Under the pieces are notes generated by a model that worked only from the letters and a program-made list of their open reading frames with translations, made no database searches and was not told the origin of the DNA. 34,006 nt of DNA from Bdellovibrionales bacterium (GTDB lineage Bacteria > Bdellovibrionota > Bdellovibrionia > Bdellovibrionales > UBA1609), in assembly GCA_020435005.1 (NCBI GenBank), contig JAGRAE010000013.1, positions 1 to 34,006 on the forward strand, given 5' to 3'. Position numbers and translations under genes: made by a program. This document shows, piece after piece, positions 218 through 25,533 of the stretch. How positions within the stretch are numbered: the first letter of the stretch is position 1; each line of letters opens with the position of its first letter.

Positions 218-3200
218 CTACATACCAAAAAAGTCTTTAAATAAGCTTTTTATGTAGCCCTCATCTTTTTGTGTAGATTCCTGCTTGATAATAGCTGTGG
301 ACTGATCACTATTTTTAAGACTTTCCAAATCTTGTTTAATGCCTTTTAATTGTATGATTATTCTTTTTGTAGAATTTAAAGTAAATGGGAGTTCATCAAA
401 GTGCATATGTGTTTTTAAAACAGCCTCTTGAAGCTGTGTAATCTTTTGTAATCCTCTTAATAAAAGTTCTCTTTCATAACCATGTGCAAATTCTTCAATT
501 GACCGTAAATTTAACCAAGTATTTACAATATAGTGATCGGGTGCTCTAGGTAGAGTTTTTAGATGGTTATTGGTTTGGTCGTAATCACCGTAAAGAAGGC
601 TATAAAATGGTTGGAAGTAAATTAAGCTCGGTGAGTTTAAGTCAAGAAATGCAACAATTAAAGAGCGTATTTGATAAAGCTCTTTTGCTTTATTTTTAAC
701 ATGAATAAGCTCATCCTCGAGATTTGGATTTGATCTAATCAAGTTTTCATATAATTCTTCATTGTTAATAGCTGGTAGTACGTAGTCTTTTAAGTCCTTC
801 ATTTTTTCACGAGTATTATCCATGAAGTCTTTAATGATAGTGGGATAGTTAATTTTTAAAGGTGCTGTATTATCTTGAACTATCAGCCAAGCATCAAAAT
901 TAGGATGATTTAAACTTTTTGGGATGTACCGTAAATTCTGGTTAGGGTCAAAGTTATAAGTATTACGTGTTCCCCCATTAGACTCTTCCCACAATAACAC
1001 CTGCAAATCCATCATAGTCAATTGTGTTTCAGATATTTTGTTGTTTTTCTTAGTATAAATGTTGTGATAATTTAGATAAACTCTAAGTTTCAACATTCCT
1101 ATTTGACGGGTAGAATTTTTTAATTTTTCCATTTTAGGATCATAATCTAAATCAAAACAGTAATAAAAACTTGAGTTGCCATTGAATTTTGCCAAAGGGT
1201 ACAACTCACTTGGGATCGTAGGCAGGTATTTAGTGTGTTGTGATAGATCTAATACGGCATTTGGATTGTTAGGGTATTTATTCATATCACAAGGCTTAAC
1301 TCTTGTAGCATCTAATCTAATATCATTTACATCTTTATACTGAACAAGTTCATTTTCATTAGGGCTGTATTCAGGAAAGTCAGAAGATCTTTTTGTAGCA
1401 ATGTTAAATTGATCAAACTTCCCGTTATTACTCAATTGCTCAAGTGTCCAAGTCGTATTCGCTCCTAAGGCTTTACTTAAATCGCTTTCATATGCTCTGC
1501 GAAGGTTTAAAAGAGAATCAATATAGCTTTTATAAGAAGTTTTGTATTCGGTAAAAAATTGGTCATAAACCTCATACATGTCGTCAACATCTAAACTGGT
1601 TGCTTCATTGAATTTATTTATACTTTCTGATGCTTGTAGAAAAAAATCAATTTCATTTATTGAATCATCTATGTTTCCTGCATTTTGGATACCACTATCT
1701 TTTAATTTTTCGTATGTCTCAATATACTTTGACACATAGTCCTCCCAAATGGTTGGATTTGCGACCTGTAATGGTGCGCTGGTGTGTCCGAGGTAAAATA
1801 AAAGCGAAGACATAAAGTTAATGTTATTTCTTACTTCATTTAAATCAGGAGCCCCTTGATAAAAGTATCCAAAATCTATATTATCTCTTGTTATTTTTTT
1901 AGATAAGGTAGATCTTTTCTGGTAATCAATTTGGTTGCCAGAGTAGAGTACATTATTTTTGGAAACATTGGCGATTAAATTGTAGATACTTTTAGAACAA
2001 TCTTCCCATTTATTTTTAATCTCAGTGGAATTTGTGCTGATCTGATTGAGGTTGTTCGGCAACACTTCACAACTATGCTTATCGTAAAGAGTTTCAATTA
2101 CAGACTGAAAATTGGCTCTAGATTCTTGTGAAAACTTTCTAAACCTTTCACTCAGATTTGTGACCTCGACAATTGTCATTGATTGAATTTGTTGGATGTT
2201 ATAGATACCTGCTCTAATTTCACTTAACTGTTTATTTAAAAACTCTGAAAAGCTGATCAAGAAATTATTTTGGAACTCGAACTGTTTTTGTACGTATTCA
2301 GATAAGTTAGACAATTGTTCTTGTATTCCAGAAAGCATTTCAAAAATAATTTTAAATCTTACTTCATCGGGATCTGGTTGGCCAATGCTCATAATTAAGT
2401 TAGCTACGCCCATGTAAACATTTAGAGTGAAGATAGAAGCTGCTAAATTTTTGGAAATATCATCGCCTATTTCCATAGCTTTTTCAAATTTAGCAAAATC
2501 ATTATTAATCTTATATAAGGTATTTGCTATGTTTAAGACTAGGTCTGCAGCCATAGGGTCTTTTGACCGTAAAACAAAAGCTATAAACTCTGCGCCCGTA
2601 AAATAGGCATATGTATGATATTCTACATTGAATTTATCGATATCAGCTTTTATTTTTATATTTTCTAGTTCTTTTTGAGCTTCAAGCATGTGATTTATTT
2701 TGTTATTCATCATTTTTACAAACGCTTCTTGTTCATTTTTTACAGCTAAAATCAACTTTTGTTCTTCTTCAGAACTAAGTTTAATACCACTTAGATATTT
2801 TATCTGTAGGGCAGTTGACTCTCTTTTCGACATCTCTAGTGCATAATTAGGTGCGTACATAACAATATCTTCTGCATTGTTAAAATCGAATGGTATACCT
2901 GTCTTATTGGCAACTTCTAAATCAAATATTTTTTTAGCTTCAATGTTTTGGTTAGAATAGTTTTTCATGTGATAGAGTGTATAGAGTGGGGAGCTAATGC
3001 CTATGTGATCGCTAGTTTTGTCGTGAATTTCATTTTGTGCTTTAATTTGTTCAGGCACTCTGTTTAGATCTTCGTAAAGTTTTACTCCTATATTTTTTGT
3101 TTCTTTGGCAATAAATGCCACCATGCTAAGGCGGATATCACCAGTTGCACCACCAGCAAACTCAAGTGTATTTAACATAGTGTCTGCCACATCGTTCACA

Positions 3201-3520
3201 CTTTGTGGAATTTTATAATTACCAGCAGCATTACGCTTAATTTTTGCCCATTGGTCATCCAGTTGGGTGAGTTCTTTCTTTATAATCGAATGTGTAATGT
3301 ATGGATTTTGTTTCACAGCTTGAAAAATATATTTGTTTCTAAAGTTAAAGTAGGCTTGTTCTTCAACATTCATGCTATTTATTGCATTGTAGGTTGAAGC
3401 GCTGGCGAACAACCATGTTTGATTTTGGTTTAAATTGCTATTAAAAAGCGGTTCGGATGCACGTACAGTTTGATATGTAAAAAACATAAATGTTAGTAAT
3501 GTAGTAATTAAATACTTCAA
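218..3520 (-). CDS. Very large secreted protein of unknown function (1100 aa)
   Basis: I do not recognise a family. The start is TTG, 9 bases after a good AGGAG site, and gives a signal peptide (Lys at residue 2, hydrophobic core about 4-20, cleavage probably near the Ala-Ser at 21-22). The rest is hydrophilic and rich in Asn, Lys, Glu and Leu. It reads as mostly alpha-helical: helical segments lie around 250-300, and a long amphipathic, coiled-coil-like stretch at about 380-470 has many Gln, Glu, Phe and Leu. A short hydrophobic patch with Gly/Ala/Met occurs near 360-380. Cys is sparse. The C-terminal part is helical again. It stands alone on the minus strand, and its stop lies 7 bases from repeat R1, inside the R1-R2 segment. 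Helical secreted toxins and prey- or host-interaction proteins are possibilities, but nothing visible decides this. Confidence 0.85.
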   Translation of the reverse strand: MKYLITTLLTFMFFTYQTVRASEPLFNSNLNQNQTWLFASASTYNAINSMNVEEQAYFNFRNKYIFQAVKQNPYITHSIIKKELTQLDDQWAKIKRNAAGNYKIPQSVNDVADTMLNTLEFAGGATGDIRLSMVAFIAKETKNIGVKLYEDLNRVPEQIKAQNEIHDKTSDHIGISSPLYTLYHMKNYSNQNIEAKKIFDLEVANKTGIPFDFNNAEDIVMYAPNYALEMSKRESTALQIKYLSGIKLSSEEEQKLILAVKNEQEAFVKMMNNKINHMLEAQKELENIKIKADIDKFNVEYHTYAYFTGAEFIAFVLRSKDPMAADLVLNIANTLYKINNDFAKFEKAMEIGDDISKNLAASIFTLNVYMGVANLIMSIGQPDPDEVRFKIIFEMLSGIQEQLSNLSEYVQKQFEFQNNFLISFSEFLNKQLSEIRAGIYNIQQIQSMTIVEVTNLSERFRKFSQESRANFQSVIETLYDKHSCEVLPNNLNQISTNSTEIKNKWEDCSKSIYNLIANVSKNNVLYSGNQIDYQKRSTLSKKITRDNIDFGYFYQGAPDLNEVRNNINFMSSLLFYLGHTSAPLQVANPTIWEDYVSKYIETYEKLKDSGIQNAGNIDDSINEIDFFLQASESINKFNEATSLDVDDMYEVYDQFFTEYKTSYKSYIDSLLNLRRAYESDLSKALGANTTWTLEQLSNNGKFDQFNIATKRSSDFPEYSPNENELVQYKDVNDIRLDATRVKPCDMNKYPNNPNAVLDLSQHTKYLPTIPSELYPLAKFNGNSSFYYCFDLDYDPKMEKLKNSTRQIGMLKLRVYLNYHNIYTKKNNKISETQLTMMDLQVLLWEESNGGTRNTYNFDPNQNLRYIPKSLNHPNFDAWLIVQDNTAPLKINYPTIIKDFMDNTREKMKDLKDYVLPAINNEELYENLIRSNPNLEDELIHVKNKAKELYQIRSLIVAFLDLNSPSLIYFQPFYSLLYGDYDQTNNHLKTLPRAPDHYIVNTWLNLRSIEEFAHGYERELLLRGLQKITQLQEAVLKTHMHFDELPFTLNSTKRIIIQLKGIKQDLESLKNSDQSTAIIKQESTQKDEGYIKSLFKDFFGM

Positions 3521-6296: not shown

Positions 6297-8675
6297 TTAA
6301 TCACTTACAGGACAGGTTTGAGGACCAGGACAGTTTACGTAATAAAGTAAACCAGAATTTTTTGTAAGGCTGCCACCTAATTGGATAATAAGGTCGTCAA
6401 TTCCGTCAAGAGTGTTTCCATTTAAATCTAAATTTCCTTGTGCAATTCTTATATCATGCCCTGATCCGTTTAAAGTCAAATTTGAAATTAACTGAACGCC
6501 CATGGGGTTATTTACAACAAATTCAGCTGTAGGCATAATGGAACCGGTTACTTGATTCACTCTTTGTAATGTGTTGCCTTTATAAATAAGAGATGTACTC
6601 CCACCTTTTAAGTAATTCAAAAATGATACATCTTTTTTGGATTCAATAGTTCCTGACTGCAAGTAAACATTTGGAGGTGAGCCCATGACAATGGGATTTC
6701 CTAATAGTAAATCACCATTTACAATAATATTTTTATTGCTTGAAATTTCCCATCTGTAATTTAATCCTGCATAATTTCTTAATGTTTTTCCTATGTGTAA
6801 ATTTTCAAATTCAAAATTGTTTGGCACATCAATATACATCGTCATACTGTCTGCTGGAAAGGCCGTGCCAAAGGAAAAATCACTTCCATTTAAATCGAGT
6901 GTTGCTGCAGGAGCTATTTGTAGTGCTGTAATTGTACTTGCCGAGTGATTTGCTGTTCGAACTTCGAAGCTACCTCCACTAGGTAGTAACATTGTTCCAT
7001 TTAAAATTTTCAATGTATTTACGTTAATACTAAAAGAATTCGAGTTACTATGTGAAAAAGAACCCGTGGTGTCGACAATGAGATTAGGCATGATACTGGT
7101 GTTATCAATGAAATCATATGTTTGATTAGTATTTCCATTTATAACAATATTTCCAACAGGTTTATTGTAGGCTCCATTTACTTTGTATCCAACAGTTAAA
7201 TTACCCTTAACTTCAATAGTCCCTTTTGTGAAGTTTACTTTGGGGTCAGCAGTGAGTGAGCTTAATGGACCAATTTGCAGATTATTGAGAACAACTATTT
7301 TATTATCACTGGAAAACTCATAGTTCATTGAAGCACTGGTGTTATTTCTTAAAGAGTCTCCTAAATTGAAATTGTAAAGTTCTAATCCTTCCTTAACGTC
7401 CACAATTATATTACCAGCTCCGCTTGGAAATTGAGAGCCAAAGGCTAAAGTTCCGTTATTGTGTAAAAAGGTAGTTGAGTTACTGACTCTAAAATTGGTA
7501 CTATTACCATAACTGAATATTTTTAAGAGTCCCGAGGTGGCGGTAAAGTTTCCATCTTCAATCAGTAGTTCGCCATGAATGGTAATTGGATCACTGGAAC
7601 CAACAAAAGTACCTGATCTTTGCAGAAAGTGATGTAATATAGAAGTTGTACCCAGAGTGATGCTGTTGCCTGTACCCTGTGTTAATGTGCCTGTATACCC
7701 TGGTAATAATTCAATGCCTTTTAAATTTAAATTCGTGTTAATCAAAGCATCACAATGGCTTCCGCAAATTCCATCAAAAGAGGCAACATGAGAAGTTGTA
7801 CTTGGTGCTAAACCATCGTTGTTACAAGTTTTAGAAATAGAATTAAAAGTCCCACACCAATTAGCATTTGTCGTAAATTGACCATCTCCAGAACTTCCTG
7901 TCCAAGAAAATTCGTGAAGGACATTAACTCTAACTGTTCCTGTACTTTCTTTTCCTGCCGAATCTTGAACAGTATAGGTAAATACATCAGGCCCAAAAAA
8001 ACCGGCATTGGGAGTATAAGAAATGTCATTGCCATTAATCGTAACTTGTCCCCCGGTGGTGTTAATGGGAGAAGTTCCATTATTATTAATCTTTATTACA
8101 CTAAATGCATCAGATTCTGGGTCATTATCATTGGAAAGGATATCAAAATTAAAAGTACCTATATCTTTATAGGAATACATTAAATCATCGACTAACACAG
8201 GCGGGAGGTTTCCTTGGAAATTAACCTGTGATTGAGTGTTATCAACTTGATTTAGTGTTTTTCCACTTAATGTAGACACAGAATTTATACTTAAATTGGG
8301 AATGATAGTTCCACTGTTTCCACTTATTGAAGTGACAGTCACAGTCCATTGGATGTAGTCAGTGGTAGCAAGCAGCCAATTTAAGCCTAGTGCAGTACCG
8401 TCATTTACGATATCATCTGCTGTAAATGAAGCAGAGTCTATCGCTTCTGAAAAAGAAAAATCAAAGGTAATAGGTAAATCTAAATCAGTAATAGGTTGTC
8501 CAGAGCCTTTAGTTATTGCAACCGTTAACGTATTAGTAGAAGGAGGATTGTCTGGAGGAGGACTTGAGGGTTCTTTTACATTGCCGTGAATACTATTATT
8601 AATTTTGCATGAAGATATAAACACGCAAAGTGATGTGAGTAACAAAATTTTTAAAATTTGGCTAAGACGTACCAT
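6297..8675 (-). CDS. Surface lipoprotein with Ig-like domains and a repetitive beta-helix-like region (adhesin-like)
   Basis: A lipoprotein signal (residues 1-23) ends in I-S-S-C, so Cys23 should be lipidated. A Pro/Ser linker (35-47, P-P-P-D-N-P-P) follows. Residues 48-155 look like a bacterial Ig-like domain (T-V-A-I-T...P-I-T-F-D-F-S-F-S-E-A-I-D...), and 158-252 match the cadherin-like Big_9 pattern (P-P-V-L-V-D-D, D-I-L-S-N-D-N-D-P-E-S-D, Y-T-P-N-A-G-F-F-G-P-D-V-F-T-Y-T-V-Q-D). From about 257 (F-S-W-T-G...N-W-C-G) to the end, the protein is an Asn/Gly/Thr/Ser-rich string of short strands with N-L-I-V / L-D-L-N-G-S motifs, as in right-handed beta-helix or filamentous adhesins. The end has two Cys (N-C-P-G-P-Q-T-C). 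Cell-surface adhesion is inferred. No clear ribosome site precedes the ATG; it is transcribed away from the next gene. Confidence 0.8.
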   Translation of the reverse strand: MVRLSQILKILLLTSLCVFISSCKINNSIHGNVKEPSSPPPDNPPSTNTLTVAITKGSGQPITDLDLPITFDFSFSEAIDSASFTADDIVNDGTALGLNWLLATTDYIQWTVTVTSISGNSGTIIPNLSINSVSTLSGKTLNQVDNTQSQVNFQGNLPPVLVDDLMYSYKDIGTFNFDILSNDNDPESDAFSVIKINNNGTSPINTTGGQVTINGNDISYTPNAGFFGPDVFTYTVQDSAGKESTGTVRVNVLHEFSWTGSSGDGQFTTNANWCGTFNSISKTCNNDGLAPSTTSHVASFDGICGSHCDALINTNLNLKGIELLPGYTGTLTQGTGNSITLGTTSILHHFLQRSGTFVGSSDPITIHGELLIEDGNFTATSGLLKIFSYGNSTNFRVSNSTTFLHNNGTLAFGSQFPSGAGNIIVDVKEGLELYNFNLGDSLRNNTSASMNYEFSSDNKIVVLNNLQIGPLSSLTADPKVNFTKGTIEVKGNLTVGYKVNGAYNKPVGNIVINGNTNQTYDFIDNTSIMPNLIVDTTGSFSHSNSNSFSINVNTLKILNGTMLLPSGGSFEVRTANHSASTITALQIAPAATLDLNGSDFSFGTAFPADSMTMYIDVPNNFEFENLHIGKTLRNYAGLNYRWEISSNKNIIVNGDLLLGNPIVMGSPPNVYLQSGTIESKKDVSFLNYLKGGSTSLIYKGNTLQRVNQVTGSIMPTAEFVVNNPMGVQLISNLTLNGSGHDIRIAQGNLDLNGNTLDGIDDLIIQLGGSLTKNSGLLYYVNCPGPQTCPVSD

Positions 8676-15685: not shown

Positions 15686-17563
15686 CTAGTGAGTAAAGTC
15701 ACTTGAGCATGAAACTTTGTGGTCATTAGGTGAGCCCCAGTCAGCATCATAAACTAGTGCCTCAATTTTGCTTGGACGAGATGATAAATTGTCAATTCGA
15801 ACTAATACATTGTCATATCCTATTGTATAATGAATTGAGCATTCTGAAATACTATTTCTCGCTTTGTTATCAGCACCTTCTGCACTCCAATCTGAATTGC
15901 AAGATTTTCCTTTTGTTGTGTTAGTAGCATTTACTTTTGCAATATAATGGTGATCTTTATTCGTTATGTTATCTGGAGATGGATCGTGTAATTCAACACT
16001 TGCTGTAACTGTGATTCCATTATTAGTGCCTGTGCAGCTGGCTACTTCTTTAAAAGTATTAATACCTGTACATTTTCCATCAGTATAAACTCCACCTTGT
16101 TGTGAACAGGCAGCAGCTTGGCTTATAGGATCATCTTTTTTAGCTAAAACTTTGATACATGTTATCAAGGCATCGTCTTCTTTATTACTTGATCCTTCAT
16201 CATAAATAAAAGCTTTCATTTTTGGAATTCCATCTTCTTCAAAGTAACGAACATCAGTTAAATATTCTGATTCACCAAATCTGCAACCGCTTACGCCATT
16301 TTTTGCTGCACTTGTATTTGTGACAGTTCTCCATTTACTATTACAATCTCTATTTAATGAGGTTTTCAATCGAGTACCATTTACTTTTGCAACGTAAACA
16401 TGATCTTCATAAGATTTATCTTCGGGAGTAGGGTCGTGCCTTTCAAGGGTGGCTGTTATGTTATGTACGCCATCATTTTTACTGCAAGAGCCTTCATAGA
16501 TTTCTACTTCATTTCCTGGATTCGTAAAGTTAATTTCGGTCGATATTTTGGATGTACAAGTCACTAGTGATTTATCTCTTACAATATTGTCGATTTCTCC
16601 AAAGACCACAATCATATCTGAATCTCTTTTGGCTTCAACAATTTGTAATTTCACTTCTTGGTCATGATCTGGGGGTGTACAGCCTGCACCGCCGCTAACC
16701 ATTCGAGTATCAGTTCCTTTTGTGTCCCATCTAGATATGCAGCTCTTACCATTACTTAGATTTTTGACTCGTGCACGACTTAACCAATAATGATCTTGAT
16801 TGCTAGTATTATTTGGTGTGGGATCATGTCTTTCAATCCAACCTTCAATTTCGTACTCGGGAGTTGCTGTTCGACAATGACCCCTTGCAATTTCAACTAG
16901 AGAGACTTTCTTTTTTGGTTTGTTTGGATTTTGATCTTTTATAACTTGAGGTGTGTTGACGTCATTACATTCGCCATCTACCCAATCTCCATTAAAAAGA
17001 AAACACATTTTTTCTTGAATTGCCAATTTTCCTTCAGTCTCATTAATTAATTCAGCTTTAATTTCTTCCTCTAATACCTCTGGATCATCTGGGGCAAAAC
17101 ACTTAACTAATTTATCTTCTGCATCGGTTTCAAAATAAAAAGTATAACTAATCCTTCTTTGCAAATTGTTATCAGTTTTTGCCCCTTTTTTTGAAACATC
17201 AAAATGCATAAGTGCTTTTTTTATTGGACCAGCACCAATAACTTCAACATTGCTTATCAACAAGTTATCCAATTTAATATTTCCAACATCACTGGTATCA
17301 ATTAGTTTTGGATCTAGGTTTAATGGAGAAGTTGCGTCTTGTGTTGGCATAACTTTGTCTAATAATAAGGTGCTACACACACCTGAATTGCCCACTATGG
17401 TTTCTGCTTGATGCTCAAACATTTGTAAGTTTAAGATATAAGCTTGTCGAGTTGAGATATTGTTAGAGTAATTTACTACTTCCAATACACCTACGCTCAA
17501 TGATCCTAATATTGCCATAGAAATTAATGTTTGGATAAGAGTAAAGCCTTTAGAGTTTCTCAT
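15686..17563 (-). CDS. Prepilin-like protein with three DPTP repeats (third gene of the operon, 625 aa)
   Basis: The start is the ATG at 17563 (overlapping the previous stop as ATGA, with GGGAG 7 bases before it) rather than one six codons upstream. The leader M-R-N-S-K-G is followed by F-T-L-I-Q-T-L-I-S-M-A-I-L-G, a class III signal cut after Gly by prepilin peptidase; position +5 is Gln instead of the usual Glu. A prepilin-type stalk with two Cys (Cys63, Cys155) is followed by C-F-L-F-N-G-D-W-V-D-G-E-C (187-199). Three ~110-residue repeats follow at about 230-337, 360-470 and 510-620, each with R/L-H-D-P-[TS]-P, D-H-x-Y/W, S-C/D-C-x-S-x-W, a central Cys and a final T/S-C. Before the third repeat a linker C-S-Q-Q-G-G-V-Y-T-D-G-K-C repeats the Gly-Gly/Asp-Gly-Cys motif. 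It is presumably a minor pilin or pseudopilin exposed at a fibre tip; that role is inferred. Confidence 0.9.
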   Translation of the reverse strand: MRNSKGFTLIQTLISMAILGSLSVGVLEVVNYSNNISTRQAYILNLQMFEHQAETIVGNSGVCSTLLLDKVMPTQDATSPLNLDPKLIDTSDVGNIKLDNLLISNVEVIGAGPIKKALMHFDVSKKGAKTDNNLQRRISYTFYFETDAEDKLVKCFAPDDPEVLEEEIKAELINETEGKLAIQEKMCFLFNGDWVDGECNDVNTPQVIKDQNPNKPKKKVSLVEIARGHCRTATPEYEIEGWIERHDPTPNNTSNQDHYWLSRARVKNLSNGKSCISRWDTKGTDTRMVSGGAGCTPPDHDQEVKLQIVEAKRDSDMIVVFGEIDNIVRDKSLVTCTSKISTEINFTNPGNEVEIYEGSCSKNDGVHNITATLERHDPTPEDKSYEDHVYVAKVNGTRLKTSLNRDCNSKWRTVTNTSAAKNGVSGCRFGESEYLTDVRYFEEDGIPKMKAFIYDEGSSNKEDDALITCIKVLAKKDDPISQAAACSQQGGVYTDGKCTGINTFKEVASCTGTNNGITVTASVELHDPSPDNITNKDHHYIAKVNATNTTKGKSCNSDWSAEGADNKARNSISECSIHYTIGYDNVLVRIDNLSSRPSKIEALVYDADWGSPNDHKVSCSSDFTH

Positions 17564-18600
17564 TGAAAACTCCCAACGCAACTAATTAAAGCATCATTCA
17601 TATTATTGTCTTCATTGTTTACAAAAAAATTATCATACACATAAATTTGCATAACTTCGGGATCTTTACTTGTATCAACTTTTAAGGTAGTATATAAATG
17701 GCTTTGGATTCCTTGAACTTTATGTGTAAAAGAATTCGATAAACCATCTGACATACTATTTATGCTCGTTTTAACTTCCCATCTCCCAGAGGCTTTTTCA
17801 CTAGAATCTTCAGTTGCAGCGTCCCAGTTAAAAATATAGTATTCATCTCCATTTGTATTATCATCAGGTGAGGGATCATATTTAAAGGCTTCACCTTCTA
17901 CCCAAAAGTTTGGAGTTGAATGATAGCAGTAGGCATATTGCTCGCCTGAATTAGGACGGCTATTCTTACCTTCGGGTATAACACACTGTCCATCAATAAA
18001 CTCAAGACCATACTCATGACAAATTTCTTGACCTATTTGTGTTATCCATTCTGATTTATTTATCATTTTCACAAGGTCTATTTGATTGGTATTGCTATTG
18101 GTTAGCGCATTGCAACCTATGACTTTATTTGTTGCATCAGTTTGAAGTAACACAGGAAATTTTCGTGGGCGAATAGGAGTTTTATTGGTTTTACTTGAAA
18201 TATAAAAAACTAAATCTGAGGTGTAATTGTTGGCTCCTGATAAATTCAGATTTTCAAATTGTACATTGTCAATGTTAAGTCTAAAGTGAATGTTCTCATT
18301 AATAAAACGACCATTAATTATACTCAATACATCTTCAGGTTTCAAGGCTGTAGGCACCACTAAATTTTCATCAGAGATCTCATGTTGACATGCTCCAGGA
18401 GTAGATAAAAGACCACTCACTTCTTTTTCTAAACGAGCAATATCTGATATAAATCTGGTATTACTTAACATTTGATTTTGTAGTTGTGCCATTTCTAGAA
18501 CAGCGTAAGTGACTCCACTGATTAAGGCTATGGCAAACATGAGTTCCATCATGCCTAAACCTTTATTATTAAGAATATAAAATTTAAATCTCAACTTCAT
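17560..18600 (-). CDS. Prepilin-like protein with one degenerate DPSP repeat (second gene, 346 aa)
   Basis: The leader M-K-L-R-F-K-F-Y-I-L-N-N-K-G is cut before L-G-M-M-E-L-M-F-A-I-A-L-I-S-G, with Leu at +1 and the canonical Glu at +5. The stalk region carries Cys71 (T-P-G-A-C) and Cys163 (V-I-G-C-N), at positions like those in its two neighbours. Then come C-H-E-Y-G-L-E-F-I-D-G-Q-C (194-206) and a single repeat at 225-341, with K-Y-D-P-S-P-D-D-N-T-N-G-D-E-Y-Y, G-R-W-E-V, I-Y-V-Y-D-N-F-F and I-S-C. This copy lacks the two middle cysteines found in most other copies, so it can form at most one internal disulphide. ATGA overlaps join it to both neighbours. It is the only one of the three with Glu5, so it may be the member that joins a filament end most like a normal pilin (inference). 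Confidence 0.88.
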   Translation of the reverse strand: MKLRFKFYILNNKGLGMMELMFAIALISGVTYAVLEMAQLQNQMLSNTRFISDIARLEKEVSGLLSTPGACQHEISDENLVVPTALKPEDVLSIINGRFINENIHFRLNIDNVQFENLNLSGANNYTSDLVFYISSKTNKTPIRPRKFPVLLQTDATNKVIGCNALTNSNTNQIDLVKMINKSEWITQIGQEICHEYGLEFIDGQCVIPEGKNSRPNSGEQYAYCYHSTPNFWVEGEAFKYDPSPDDNTNGDEYYIFNWDAATEDSSEKASGRWEVKTSINSMSDGLSNSFTHKVQGIQSHLYTTLKVDTSKDPEVMQIYVYDNFFVNNEDNNMNDALISCVGSFQ

Positions 18601-20444
18601 AGTATCCTTTTACAGTTTACAAACGAGTCGCTAATTGTATTGTTTGACCAATAAGAATTATTCAAGAAGGCTTCAAACCCATTTGGATTATTTAGGTTAT
18701 CAGTTCTTACATGTGCTGTGAATTCTTCAAAGTCAGGAAGGAATTGGTTGTAAACTGTACAACTTGCTATATCTGTACGTGCCTTATCTTTTTCATTTGT
18801 TGATTTCCATCCTGTGTCGCAGGTGTATTGTGTTTTTTGATTATCTCTGGCGCGTACTCTTGCAAAGTATTTTATTCCACTGGATGTATTAACTTCTTCA
18901 AACCAGGCTTGAACTAAATGAGTTTCAGAGTTTTGCTCGCAAAATCCTGCTTTCAATCTTACACCTTCATTTTGACCAGAACTCCAGTTGCCAGGATCCG
19001 TACCTGGACCCGAGGGAGTAATTGGTAGTTCAGAAAGACAGGCTATTTTAGAATTTGATAAAGAATCACTTTCCCAGTAGCTATCATAAACAAGAGCTTC
19101 AATTTTATTGCTGTTAGTAGAACTATTAGTTCTGATTTTTGCTACCATATCAGTACCTTCTATGCGACAGGAGTTAATTCCTCCTCGTGCACCAGAATCT
19201 GAAGAGGCAATACGCCATGTTGATTCGCATGATTTGTCTTTATTTAAATCTTTTGCTTTAATTTTACCTACAAAATAATGATCATCGTTTGTTATGTCAT
19301 TAGGTGTAGGATCGTACTTTTTTGCCCAAGCTTCAATGGACCAGTTTTTTGTCTGATAACTACAATGCCCATTTGATCCAGGCACGGGTGGTGAGTAATT
19401 AAACTCTCCAATACATGCTGTTTTCCCATCTTTGGGGCTGGCACCAGTTGACTCCTCATAATTATTTACAAAAGCATGAAACCCTTCGGTTCTACCGCCG
19501 ATAAGAACAATATTGGCTTCCTCATCGTGTGTTTGCCCATCAGCACTATGCAATATAGAGCAGTAAACTAAATGTGTTTTTCCGGCGTTGGTTGTTGCCC
19601 ATTTAGACTCACAACTACTATCAATCGATGTTGTTTTTTTTCTTGTTTTTACCTTACTTACATAAAAGTGATCATTATTAGTTTCATTTTCAGGTGTAGG
19701 ATCGTAGAGCTCTACCCATGCTTCTAGTGAATACATGGGTGTTTCTTTACGGCAGTAGCCTTTGCCATAATTAGTTCCTGAGGTACCAGAGCTCCAAGAT
19801 GTGGGATCTTTGGCCATCTCATTATTAATATTTGTGCCTTCACACGCGCCATCTTTCCATGTGCCACCAATAGTTTTGCAAGCTTGTTCTCTAAAATAGA
19901 ACATCAATTCCTCTTTAGACATGATGACTTCCGCTGATTGTGCTACTTCATAGGTTAATGACTTTGAACCAAAACATTTGGTAGGATTGCCTTCGGTGTC
20001 TAAGGCCATATAAATCGGAAAATTTAAAGGTTTGACTTTTGTATCTGATTCTTTTTTGGATTGGACACTTATACTAATGTTGGCTGCAACTAGTGAATTA
20101 TTGATTTGTTTTATGCCCACAAGTCGAGCTGATTCTAAGTAGTGATTAGTTAATTTAATACTTGATACATTATCTTTGTTGATTTCAAAATGATCTGGAA
20201 AGGTTTTTTCTACATCAAATTTAACACCATTGAGTGCTGTTATGCATTTTCCAGGATCTTTAAGTTGATTTCTTAAATCTAAAAAAAACTCTGTATGTTC
20301 GTTTGATTTTCTTTGTTTTTCTATCTGACGATGGCCAAGGGCCATAATTTGAATAAGAATAAGCATGGAGAAGCTAGCTATGCTAATAGAAATCATCATG
20401 CTCATTAAGCTCATGCCATTATTGGCTTTAAGAATACGTCTCAC
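18597..20444 (-). CDS. Prepilin-like protein with three DPTP repeats (first gene, 615 aa)
   Basis: The GTG start (20444) follows AAAAGGG and gives a short leader M-R-R-I-L-K-A-N-N-G before M-S-L-M-S-M-M-I-S-I-S-I-A, a class III (prepilin) signal with Met at +1 and Ser at +5 instead of Glu. The stalk carries Cys67 (D-P-G-K-C) and Cys157 (P-T-K-C-F). Then follow C-K-T-I-G-G-T-W-K-D-G-A-C (189-201), a Ser/Gly/Thr linker, and three repeats at 231-344, 361-469 and 502-611. The first two keep L/K-Y-D-P-T-P-x-x-x-T-N-x-D-H-[FY], S-C-E-S-[KT]-W, a central C, and T/I-A-C; the third is more diverged (E-E-V-N-T in place of DPTP) but keeps its four Cys and Trp residues. The linkers before repeats 2 and 3 are Pro/Gly-rich. 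It heads the operon; its ATGA overlap with the next gene implies tight coupling. Confidence 0.9.
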   Translation of the reverse strand: MRRILKANNGMSLMSMMISISIASFSMLILIQIMALGHRQIEKQRKSNEHTEFFLDLRNQLKDPGKCITALNGVKFDVEKTFPDHFEINKDNVSSIKLTNHYLESARLVGIKQINNSLVAANISISVQSKKESDTKVKPLNFPIYMALDTEGNPTKCFGSKSLTYEVAQSAEVIMSKEELMFYFREQACKTIGGTWKDGACEGTNINNEMAKDPTSWSSGTSGTNYGKGYCRKETPMYSLEAWVELYDPTPENETNNDHFYVSKVKTRKKTTSIDSSCESKWATTNAGKTHLVYCSILHSADGQTHDEEANIVLIGGRTEGFHAFVNNYEESTGASPKDGKTACIGEFNYSPPVPGSNGHCSYQTKNWSIEAWAKKYDPTPNDITNDDHYFVGKIKAKDLNKDKSCESTWRIASSDSGARGGINSCRIEGTDMVAKIRTNSSTNSNKIEALVYDSYWESDSLSNSKIACLSELPITPSGPGTDPGNWSSGQNEGVRLKAGFCEQNSETHLVQAWFEEVNTSSGIKYFARVRARDNQKTQYTCDTGWKSTNEKDKARTDIASCTVYNQFLPDFEEFTAHVRTDNLNNPNGFEAFLNNSYWSNNTISDSFVNCKRIL

Positions 20445-23845: not shown

Positions 23846-24643
23846 CTATCTTCCGCGTAAACGAGGCCATAATAATGTCATTAATATGGGGCAAATAGTA
23901 AAAACAACGACAATTATTGCGCCAGAGGGTAGATCGTAAAAATAAGATAAGCTCATGCCTAATAAAGAAAGAGCGACACCTAAAGACCAACCAAAAATAA
24001 GACGTTGTTTCCAGGATTTAAAAAAAGCTGCACTAATTATGGCCGGTACAATTAAAAATGAGAAGACGATTAACACTCCAGCATAATGTACAGAGCTAGT
24101 AATGACGACACCAAAAAGTCCATAAAATAAAAAGTCCCACCACCAATGATTGCCACCCTTTACAGAACTTTTAAAAAAAGGATCTCTAAACACAAAATGA
24201 ATAAATCCAACGATACTATATATAATACTTACTGTAATTACATCTTGCCATGTTACCCATAACAAGTTGCCAATGAGACTTTGTTTTAGATGTTCCGAAC
24301 CATGACTAATTTTATCAATTAGTAATATGATTGTCGCAGAGGCCAAAGCGTATATAACACCAATTAAGGCTTCTTGAGAAATCTGAAAACGAAATCTATT
24401 GGCATGAGCCAGAAAAAAAGAAGCCACTAAGGTGGCTCCTAAGGAAATAAAATAACTCATTATATCATGGTGGTCATAGCCCCATAAAAAGGCCAATGCC
24501 GAACCAAAGGCTGCGACTTGAGCCAAGGCGAGATCTACAAAAATGACTCCACGAGCGAGTACATGAAGTCCTAAGTAACAATGTATACCGACAAGGACTA
24601 TGCACATGAAAAAAGGAGCTGCTAAAAAAGTTAGCGCTTCCAT
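23846..24643 (-). CDS. Metal (zinc/manganese-type) ABC transporter permease, ABC-3 family (265 aa)
   Basis: ZnuB/TroC-type inner-membrane permease. About eight hydrophobic segments are visible, starting with A-L-T-F-L-A-A-P-F-F-M-C-I-V-L-V-G. The family hallmarks are present: L-G-L-H-V-L-A-R-G-V-I-F-V-D-L-A-L-A-Q-V-A-A-F-G-S (25-49) and A-L-I-G-V-I-Y-A-L-A-S-A-T (92-104). The ATG at 24643 is taken as start, overlapping the stop of the binding protein (TGATG); a GTG one codon upstream is equally possible. It belongs to the same operon as the binding protein. No ATPase gene is present in the operon, so a distant ATPase must serve it if it is functional. Confidence 0.92.
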   Translation of the reverse strand: MEALTFLAAPFFMCIVLVGIHCYLGLHVLARGVIFVDLALAQVAAFGSALAFLWGYDHHDIMSYFISLGATLVASFFLAHANRFRFQISQEALIGVIYALASATIILLIDKISHGSEHLKQSLIGNLLWVTWQDVITVSIIYSIVGFIHFVFRDPFFKSSVKGGNHWWWDFLFYGLFGVVITSSVHYAGVLIVFSFLIVPAIISAAFFKSWKQRLIFGWSLGVALSLLGMSLSYFYDLPSGAIIVVVFTICPILMTLLWPRLRGR

Positions 24644-25533
24644 CACATAACACCTTTCGAACAGTCTTCGATGGCAGAAACTAATTTTTCGATTAAATCA
24701 ATATAATTTGTTTCCACTTCTACGGGAACCACCTTTAATGTGGCCTGAGTTACCTTTTGCAACCGCTTGGCAGCTGTAGTCTCAAAGTAAGATTCGTTGA
24801 AAATACATTTTATTTTTTTATCTTTAATCAATTTTATCAGTTGAATTATGTGCTTCGGAGTTGGGGGGACGCCAGGTTTAGGTTCAATATAAGCTATGGG
24901 GGTGATATTAAAAAAATTTAAAAAATAATTAAAAGACTTATGATAAGAGATTAATTCACGTATTTTAGATTTGTTAACTCTCTCTTGCCATTTGCTAATT
25001 TGACTTTCTAATACTTTATTAAACTCTTCAGCATTGGCCATAAAAATGGTTTTAGAATTAGGTTCTAATTCACCTAATTTTTTTGCGAGAGCCAAAATGA
25101 CTTTTTGGCTCTCCACAGGGCTAAGGTGAAAGTGTGGATTGCCAAAGGGATGAACATCTCCCTGGGCACGGTCAACTTTGCCTTTGGGTATTTCTATGGC
25201 ATTTATGAAATCACCAGCTGTGAAAAAGCCAAACTTTTTATCCAAAAGCTTGGGATTTTTTGCGCCCCTTTGAACATTGCTCAACCAGCCCACTTCTAAC
25301 TCTAAACCCACTGCCACCAATAAATCAGCTTGCCTCAATTTAACCATGTACGACGGTTTGGCCTCAACAAAGTGGGGATCTTCTTGGGGCTTCGTCAAAG
25401 AAGTCACTTCCACTTTATCGCGACCAACTTGTTTAACAAATTCTGCAAGCGTGGTTGTTGTAGTGACTACCTTTAATTTAGCAATACTTATATTTGGAAT
25501 TAAAAAAAATATTATAATGACTATTAATTTCAT
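24643..25533 (-). CDS. Periplasmic metal-binding protein of an ABC transporter (ZnuA/TroA-type, 296 aa)
   Basis: Cluster A-I (SBP_bac_9) protein that carries Zn(II) or Mn(II) to the permease. A signal peptide (residues 1-18, ...I-S-I-A-K) is followed by V-V-T-T-T-T-T-L-A-E-F. Metal ligands fit the family: His54 (D-P-H), His134 (G-N-P-H-F-H-L), His198 (S-Y-H-K-S-F) and Glu247 (F-N-E-S-Y-F), the last in the usual Asp/Glu position. Additional His128 and His136 flank the second ligand. The long His/Asp-rich loop of many ZnuA proteins is missing; a short R-A-Q-G-D-V-H-P-F loop takes its place. The ribosome site AGGA overlaps the upstream porin stop, and the gene overlaps the permease start. Zinc is favoured by the neighbours; manganese cannot be excluded. 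Confidence 0.92.
   Translation of the reverse strand: MKLIVIIIFFLIPNISIAKLKVVTTTTTLAEFVKQVGRDKVEVTSLTKPQEDPHFVEAKPSYMVKLRQADLLVAVGLELEVGWLSNVQRGAKNPKLLDKKFGFFTAGDFINAIEIPKGKVDRAQGDVHPFGNPHFHLSPVESQKVILALAKKLGELEPNSKTIFMANAEEFNKVLESQISKWQERVNKSKIRELISYHKSFNYFLNFFNITPIAYIEPKPGVPPTPKHIIQLIKLIKDKKIKCIFNESYFETTAAKRLQKVTQATLKVVPVEVETNYIDLIEKLVSAIEDCSKGVM

Follow-up and report, generated by a model that had tools for sequence, protein, structure and literature searches.

The window analyzed here, the whole 34,006-base contig JAGRAE010000013.1 of a Bdellovibrionales bacterium (GC about 34%), is contig C44 of a 3.39 Mb assembly in 351 contigs. It encodes three adjacent prepilin-like proteins, A, B, and C, that carry seven copies of a repeat referred to as the DPTP domain. 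The three genes are listed below, with a slash marking the cleavage site in each signal.

18597..20444, minus strand: gene A, 615 amino acids, GTG start, prepilin-like, three DPTP copies, signal NNG/MSLMS without Glu5
17560..18600, minus strand: gene B, 346 amino acids, prepilin-like, one DPTP copy, signal NNKG/LGMME with Glu5, start overlapping the A stop (ATGA)
15686..17563, minus strand: gene C, 625 amino acids, prepilin-like, three DPTP copies, signal SKG/FTLIQ, start overlapping the B stop (ATGA)

The stop codon of one gene overlaps the start codon of the next by four nucleotides at both the A/B and B/C junctions, and this ATGA coupling suggests that expression of the three genes is linked. 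The start of gene C is most likely the ATG at 17563 rather than the TTG at 17581. A preliminary description of this DNA had placed three coupled prepilin-like genes at 15686-20444, and the open reading frames and both overlaps bear this out.

The DPTP domain is about 115 residues long, and a profile recovers all seven copies, three in A, one in B, and three in C.

19401..19763, minus strand: DPTP copy A1, profile match, leave-one-out score
19026..19373, minus strand: DPTP copy A2, profile match, leave-one-out score; the copy modeled by AlphaFold2
18600..18950, minus strand: DPTP copy A3, profile match; diverged, DPTP motif lost, four Cys retained
17566..17940, minus strand: DPTP copy B1, profile match; two middle Cys lost together
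16544..16885, minus strand: DPTP copy C1, profile match, leave-one-out score
16145..16495, minus strand: DPTP copy C2, profile match, leave-one-out score
15695..16045, minus strand: DPTP copy C3, profile match, leave-one-out score

The leave-one-out profile scores of the seven copies are 37.8-112 bits compared to 7-12 bits for the best of 1000 shuffles, and BLAST of A against its own genome finds C (E 3.7e-41) and B (E 2.9e-8). These data show that the seven-copy repeat pattern is real and not an artefact, and they agree with the 3, 1, and 3 copies counted in the preliminary description. The DPTP motif that it ascribed to the copies is absent from A3 and altered in some others. Six of the seven copies have four Cys, as had been said of most, and the two middle Cys are missing from B1. 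An eighth, diverged copy lies outside the window on contig C94, in a 331-amino acid protein with the same type of stalk. This copy scored 19 bits with a profile that excluded it, compared to 10.6 bits for shuffles, and 91 bits after its inclusion. The C94 paralogue (L043:1856-2851, minus strand, G000:C94) is encoded alone and has one copy with an insertion and two extra Cys, which could form a third disulfide. Cys1 and Cys4 are kept in all eight copies, and both middle Cys are present in six and jointly absent from B1. The C94 copy retains the third Cys and has another Cys near the position of the second. Because the middle Cys are lost together, the sequence comparison suggests the pairing Cys1-Cys4 and Cys2-Cys3. 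Only two Cys and one Trp are invariant across the copies, and a tree built from all eight gave no resolution.

No Pfam or NCBIfam family covers the DPTP repeats at curated cut-offs. PHROGs contained no credible family over the repeats and matched only the signal region of C, and the DPTP profile found no convincing match among PDB chain sequences (best E 0.39). AlphaFold2 run on the eight-sequence alignment gave a confident model of copy A2, with a predicted local distance difference test score (pLDDT) of 92.6 and a predicted template modeling score (pTM) of 0.85. The model is mostly beta, consisting of nine strands and one short helix. Foldseek returned no match to this model at E ≤0.001; the best E values were 0.12 in the PDB and 0.055 in BFVD, and the query TM-scores were at most 0.36 among the matches listed. 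The fold comparison covered the PDB and BFVD, which leaves room for a relative known only from cellular structure predictions. These data identify DPTP as a new domain with a confidently predicted fold that has no known PDB or BFVD counterpart. The preliminary description could match the repeat to no named domain and proposed modeling a single copy; the first point held in every database searched, and the second yielded the beta-rich model.

The occurrence of the domain was surveyed in 144 genomes of the class (143 others) and 369 genomes of the phylum (368 others). The DPTP domain was found in 0/143 other class genomes, and the 368 other phylum genomes held no credible copy, only four partial, weak matches. 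These matches (G151, G161, G192, and G303; E 7e-4 to 0.045) were taken as chance, and the two weak-match loci that were opened, L045 and L047, have no prepilin-like protein at the matched site. A DNA scan for the pattern DPTP-x3-TN-x-DH in the genome contigs of 84,980 species, a limited test because the pattern is strict, matched one alphaproteobacterial metagenome-assembled genome with stop codons nearby in frame, also taken as chance. Loci related to protein C were found in neither genome contigs nor viral contigs, and phages and plasmids contained no DPTP relative. An hhalign comparison of the DPTP profile with the heads of the selected stalk proteins matched this genome's four proteins and no others (next 1.3% probability). 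The preliminary description had proposed a search for the same gene order in Bdellovibrionota genomes. The stalk proved to be phylum-wide, but the DPTP domain was found in this genome only, a privacy that may partly reflect sampling because the genus is represented by one genome.

The amino-terminal part of each protein is a stalk.

19965..20417, minus strand: stalk of A, alpha-1 helix and pilin-like sheet, Cys58 and Cys148 (numbered from the Gly before the cleavage site)
18103..18561, minus strand: stalk of B, from stalk profile, alignment, and structure model
17090..17548, minus strand: stalk of C, from stalk profile and alignment

All three proteins have the Gly of a prepilin peptidase site followed by a hydrophobic helix, and position 5 is Ser in A, Glu in B, and Gln in C. 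Over residues 1-56, the stalk profile matches type IV pilins of known structure (7tgg, E 1e-5; 1oqw, E 3.5e-5). The model of B has an alpha-1 helix at residues 4-53 and strands at 95-109, 112-123, 133-141, and 146-152, with a local pLDDT around 90. The class III signals of the preliminary description thus stand as prepilin-like N termini, but Glu5 is present in B only. Its Cys-marked stalk is confirmed by an alignment of 30 stalks from tandem and single loci, in which Gly1, Cys58, and Cys148 are invariant. Ninety-four proteins with a strong stalk match were kept from the fetched loci, and these have a Cys near position 58 in 94/94 and a Cys near the stalk end in 89/94. The first alignment of A, B, and C gave N-terminal matches in 94/144 class genomes. 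The refined stalk profile detected the family in 112/144 class genomes at E ≤1e-6 and in 249/369 phylum genomes at E ≤1e-10, often several times per genome. No TadE-type Pfam family was found in A, B, or C or in 102 stalk-family proteins scanned. In the poorly resolved stalk tree, B and C of the window branch together (85/80), as do members of several other sets. The tree was rejected as a test of fixed A, B, and C positions common to other trios because the sequences are too diverged for resolution.

Stalk and repeats are connected by a Cys bridge. The bridge is present in all three proteins, as the preliminary description had noted, but its spacing C-x(5-6)-G has no match and the actual pattern is C-x(3-4)-[GN]-x(3-4)-D-G-x-C, with four instances in A, B, and C.

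19842..19880, minus strand: Cys bridge of A, CKTIGGTWKDGAC, pattern match
17983..18021, minus strand: Cys bridge of B, CHEYGLEFIDGQC, pattern match
16967..17005, minus strand: Cys bridge of C, CFLFNGDWVDGEC, pattern match
16070..16108, minus strand: second Cys bridge of C, between DPTP copies C2 and C3, CSQQGGVYTDGKC, pattern match

The stalk profile spans residues 1-150 and the heads begin past the bridge. If the stalk is accepted as a pilin module, each protein is a pilin with an extra C-terminal module. The preliminary description had pointed to minor pilins and pseudopilins of this kind, and the architecture matches published modular pilins and three-subunit tips (PMC8179133, PMC12075869).

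The stalk family carries many different heads. With stalk and bridge removed, 78 heads of at least 50 amino acids fell into 38 clusters, 29 of them singletons; these counts describe the selection and not the phylum because the loci were chosen for strong or tandem matches. Peptidase_S74 is present in each of the three proteins of a trio in genome G118 (Pfam E 1e-20 to 5e-14). This trio (L056:4911-9394, plus strand, G118:C180) consists of tandem prepilin-like genes, and each S74 domain has an SDxxxK motif. A Peptidase_S74 head above the Pfam cut-off is also found in G013, and the survey tables list eight S74 proteins in all. Hint-type heads are above the Pfam cut-off in G115, G078, and G074. 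Hint-type domains occur in some members of the sets at L117:2852-8599 (plus strand, G074:C110; four stalk genes) and L140:1593-5730 (plus strand, G078:C575; three stalk genes), which suggests autoprocessing heads. A stalk-family protein of G094 has a tandem collagen-IV NC1 pair (Pfam C4, E 5e-37), and phmmer also matches it to solved collagen-IV NC1 domains (separate NC1 chains, E about 1e-33). In this protein (L122:2840-4012, minus strand, G094:C124), a domain typical of animal basement membranes sits on a pilin-like stalk of a bacterium; contamination inside a single unbroken frame seems unlikely. The survey tables also list fn3, DUF4214, and a weak mannan-binding MVL match. Three G045 proteins have thrombospondin type 1 (TSP1) heads and one G067 protein has an RCC1 head, all with weak stalk matches. 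The G045 proteins belong to four prepilin-like genes close together (L057:2941-9962, G045:C1), three with thrombospondin type 1. The G067 protein (L066:2248-4152, plus strand, G067:C41) is prepilin-like, ends in RCC1 repeats that are predicted to form a propeller, and adjoins a stalk-family gene. The W-S-x-W Cys heads of G035 and G061 were considered as thrombospondin type 1, but three scanned at a loose Pfam limit gave no support; this domain is well supported in G045 alone. One stalk-family head (L053:4091-5050, minus strand, G002:C139) is a long Thr/Lys/Ser tract followed by an acidic Asp/Asn tract across undetermined assembly bases.

Heads tend to be shared within a gene set. Same-strand runs of two to four adjacent stalk-like genes occur at 27 of the 86 places in the fetched loci, weak stalk matches counted. 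A set was considered comparable if it had at least two strong members with heads long enough, and in all eight comparable sets (the window, L050, L054, L056, L060, L095, L117, and L140) the heads of the set are in one cluster. The third member of L060 is on the opposite strand. The three set members of G035 and G061 pair one to one across genera (41%, 38%, and 37% identity).

A three-subunit tip or adhesin role appears to be the best explanation of these data. We consider it reasonably likely that A, B, and C are modular minor pilins that are made and exported together and probably form one heterotrimeric tip with seven DPTP domains for ligand binding. The genome encodes two prepilin peptidases and eleven T2SSE-family ATPases above cut-off. 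One of the two peptidases would cut each N terminus, and the alpha-1 helix would dock into a type IV, type II-secretion-like, or Tad filament whose assembly would be driven by one of the pilus or secretion ATPase systems. The pilin-like stalk with its invariant Cys pair would bear the Cys bridge and then one or three disulfide-stabilized DPTP domains. A, B, and C would probably form one tip, a heterotrimer like GspI-J-K or KilL-M-N, and the seven displayed domains may bind a ligand on a surface, for example a glycan, a matrix, or the envelope of a prey or partner cell. The G118 set with its three S74 domains is the strongest indirect support for the trio, and it would suit a three-subunit tip because S74 is established as a trimerization chaperone (PMC10769870). 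Several observations weigh against this proposal. Glu5 is absent from A and C, and Pfam N_methyl scores 20.2 bits in C (cut-off 21.2), 12.2 bits in A, and nothing in B. The scanned neighbors of the trio encode a 2OG-Fe(II) oxygenase, a DEAD helicase, and ABC transporters, and no pilus gene was found among them. The stalk proteins in the fetched loci are mostly encoded singly, and thus the trio is not obligatory. The full stalk-plus-head model of B is poor overall (pTM 0.45) and its Foldseek search returns no pilin. For these two reasons we call the modeled stalk pilin-like and not a proven pilin.

Other roles were weighed against the same data. It is unlikely that A, B, and C act independently as single modular pilins along a filament and are adjacent by tandem duplication only. 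Local duplication would produce a stalk tree that joins B and C and groups several other sets, and the C94 paralogue, like most stalk genes, stands alone; however, the G035 and G061 members pair as if they had three separate lasting roles, and the ATGA coupling suggests linked expression. Somewhat less probable again is that A, B, and C belong as pseudopilins to a type II-secretion-like apparatus, with heads that bind secreted cargo or scaffold the tip of a periplasmic pseudopilus instead of facing outward as adhesins. Among curated models there is weak similarity to GspJ and ComGE/ComGF, and contig C17, on which stalk-profile matches lie near a T2SSE ATPase, likely holds a T2SS-type locus. 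Nevertheless, no curated Gsp model reaches its cut-off (gspJ, 16.4 bits against 64.85), and the other pseudopilin models also fall far short. The disulfide-rich heads suit an oxidizing compartment, which is equally true of the surface, whereas the variety of heads among the relatives (S74, collagen-IV NC1, and Hint) resembles surface display more than a conserved secretion task. We regard as improbable that the heads are enzymatic or antagonistic rather than adhesive and are delivered on contact, as is suspected for some predatory pilus tips. Related stalks bear Hint domains and predicted S74 autoproteases, and Kil tips work together with a killing apparatus (PMC12075869), but DPTP has no conserved set of catalytic-looking residues, its invariant positions being two Cys and one Trp, and its tandem copies better suit multivalent binding.

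Some other features of the window were noted. The 2OG-Fe(II) oxygenase gene lies upstream of A on the same strand with 144 bases between them, and a convergent open reading frame without a Pfam match lies 12 bases beyond the end of C. A promoter and terminator scan found sites no more numerous than in shuffles. Zinc-uptake type ABC genes, ZnuA adjoining an ABC-3 permease, are at 23849-25533 (minus strand). Two possible surface proteins are a 792-amino acid protein with a bacterial Ig domain (Big_9) at 6297-8675 (minus strand) and an 1100-amino acid open reading frame with no Pfam family at cut-off at 218-3520 (minus strand).

The proposed tip can be compared with several known systems. GspI-GspJ-GspK, the pseudopilus tip of type II secretion, is a minor pseudopilin heterotrimer with one member that lacks Glu5. 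Its heads are unrelated to DPTP, and the Gsp models do not recognize A, B, or C at cut-off; PMC8179133 discusses this heterotrimer as well. Published modular pilins that bear adhesive heads are a precedent (PMC8179133, PMC9934059). The idea of modules grafted onto pilins was developed for Streptococcus sanguinis PilB, in work that counted 264 architectures (PMC8179133). As in S. sanguinis PilB and PilC (PMC8179133, PMC9934059), A, B, and C join an N-terminal pilin module to a grafted C-terminal module. Pilins of that type have adhesive or glycan-binding heads and many bacterial architectures that include peptidase heads, whereas the head here is an unassigned tandem domain common to three coupled genes, on a diverged stalk family that spans the phylum and has an invariant Cys pair. 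The strongest precedent is the Myxococcus Kil system, in which interchangeable tips with differing ends are built from four sets of three genes. KilLMN form heterotrimers at the tip whose distal domains vary, some of them encoded outside the pilus gene loci, and a tip was also predicted for Bdellovibrio in that work (PMC12075869). The trio resembles Myxococcus xanthus KilL-KilM-KilN in its three adjacent minor-pilin genes, variable distal domains, many predicted disulfides, and predatory lineage, and in tip loci partly separate from the pilus machinery. In contrast, KilLMN are TadE/F/G homologues, a family type that A, B, and C do not match in Pfam, and the Kil distal domain is mostly on KilN where here the same domain is on all three proteins. 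Bdellovibrio MAT chimeric fibers likewise keep their N-terminal part constant and exchange their C-terminal tips, S74 tips among them, to recognize other cells (PMC10769870). MATs are set apart by their description as trimeric beta-helix fibers with a signal peptide and a constant beta-rich domain, unlike the prepilin-like N termini here, and the word pilin is absent from that paper.

The modular-pilin principle is already known, since the interchangeable Kil tips and the grafted PilB modules are published. What is new is the DPTP domain and the distribution of many heads on one stalk. We found no description of one stalk with many heads across the phylum in the open-licence literature searched, and this seems the more valuable result. 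DPTP is probably one custom head among many on the same stalk, contacting other cells or surfaces. A broader reading, which we put forward only tentatively, is that the DPTP fold is new and that the domain belongs to dozens of interchangeable Bdellovibrionota heads on a common Cys-locked pilin stalk, often in sets sharing a head type, that would constitute a lineage-specific pilus-tip repertoire for recognizing other cells. For the question of how predatory and related bacteria recognize so many other cells, a stalk family in two thirds of the sampled phylum genomes with very different heads provides a countable group of candidate recognition proteins. The DPTP domain is a tractable test case among them, being small, predicted to be disulfide stabilized, confidently modeled, and unlike any known structure.

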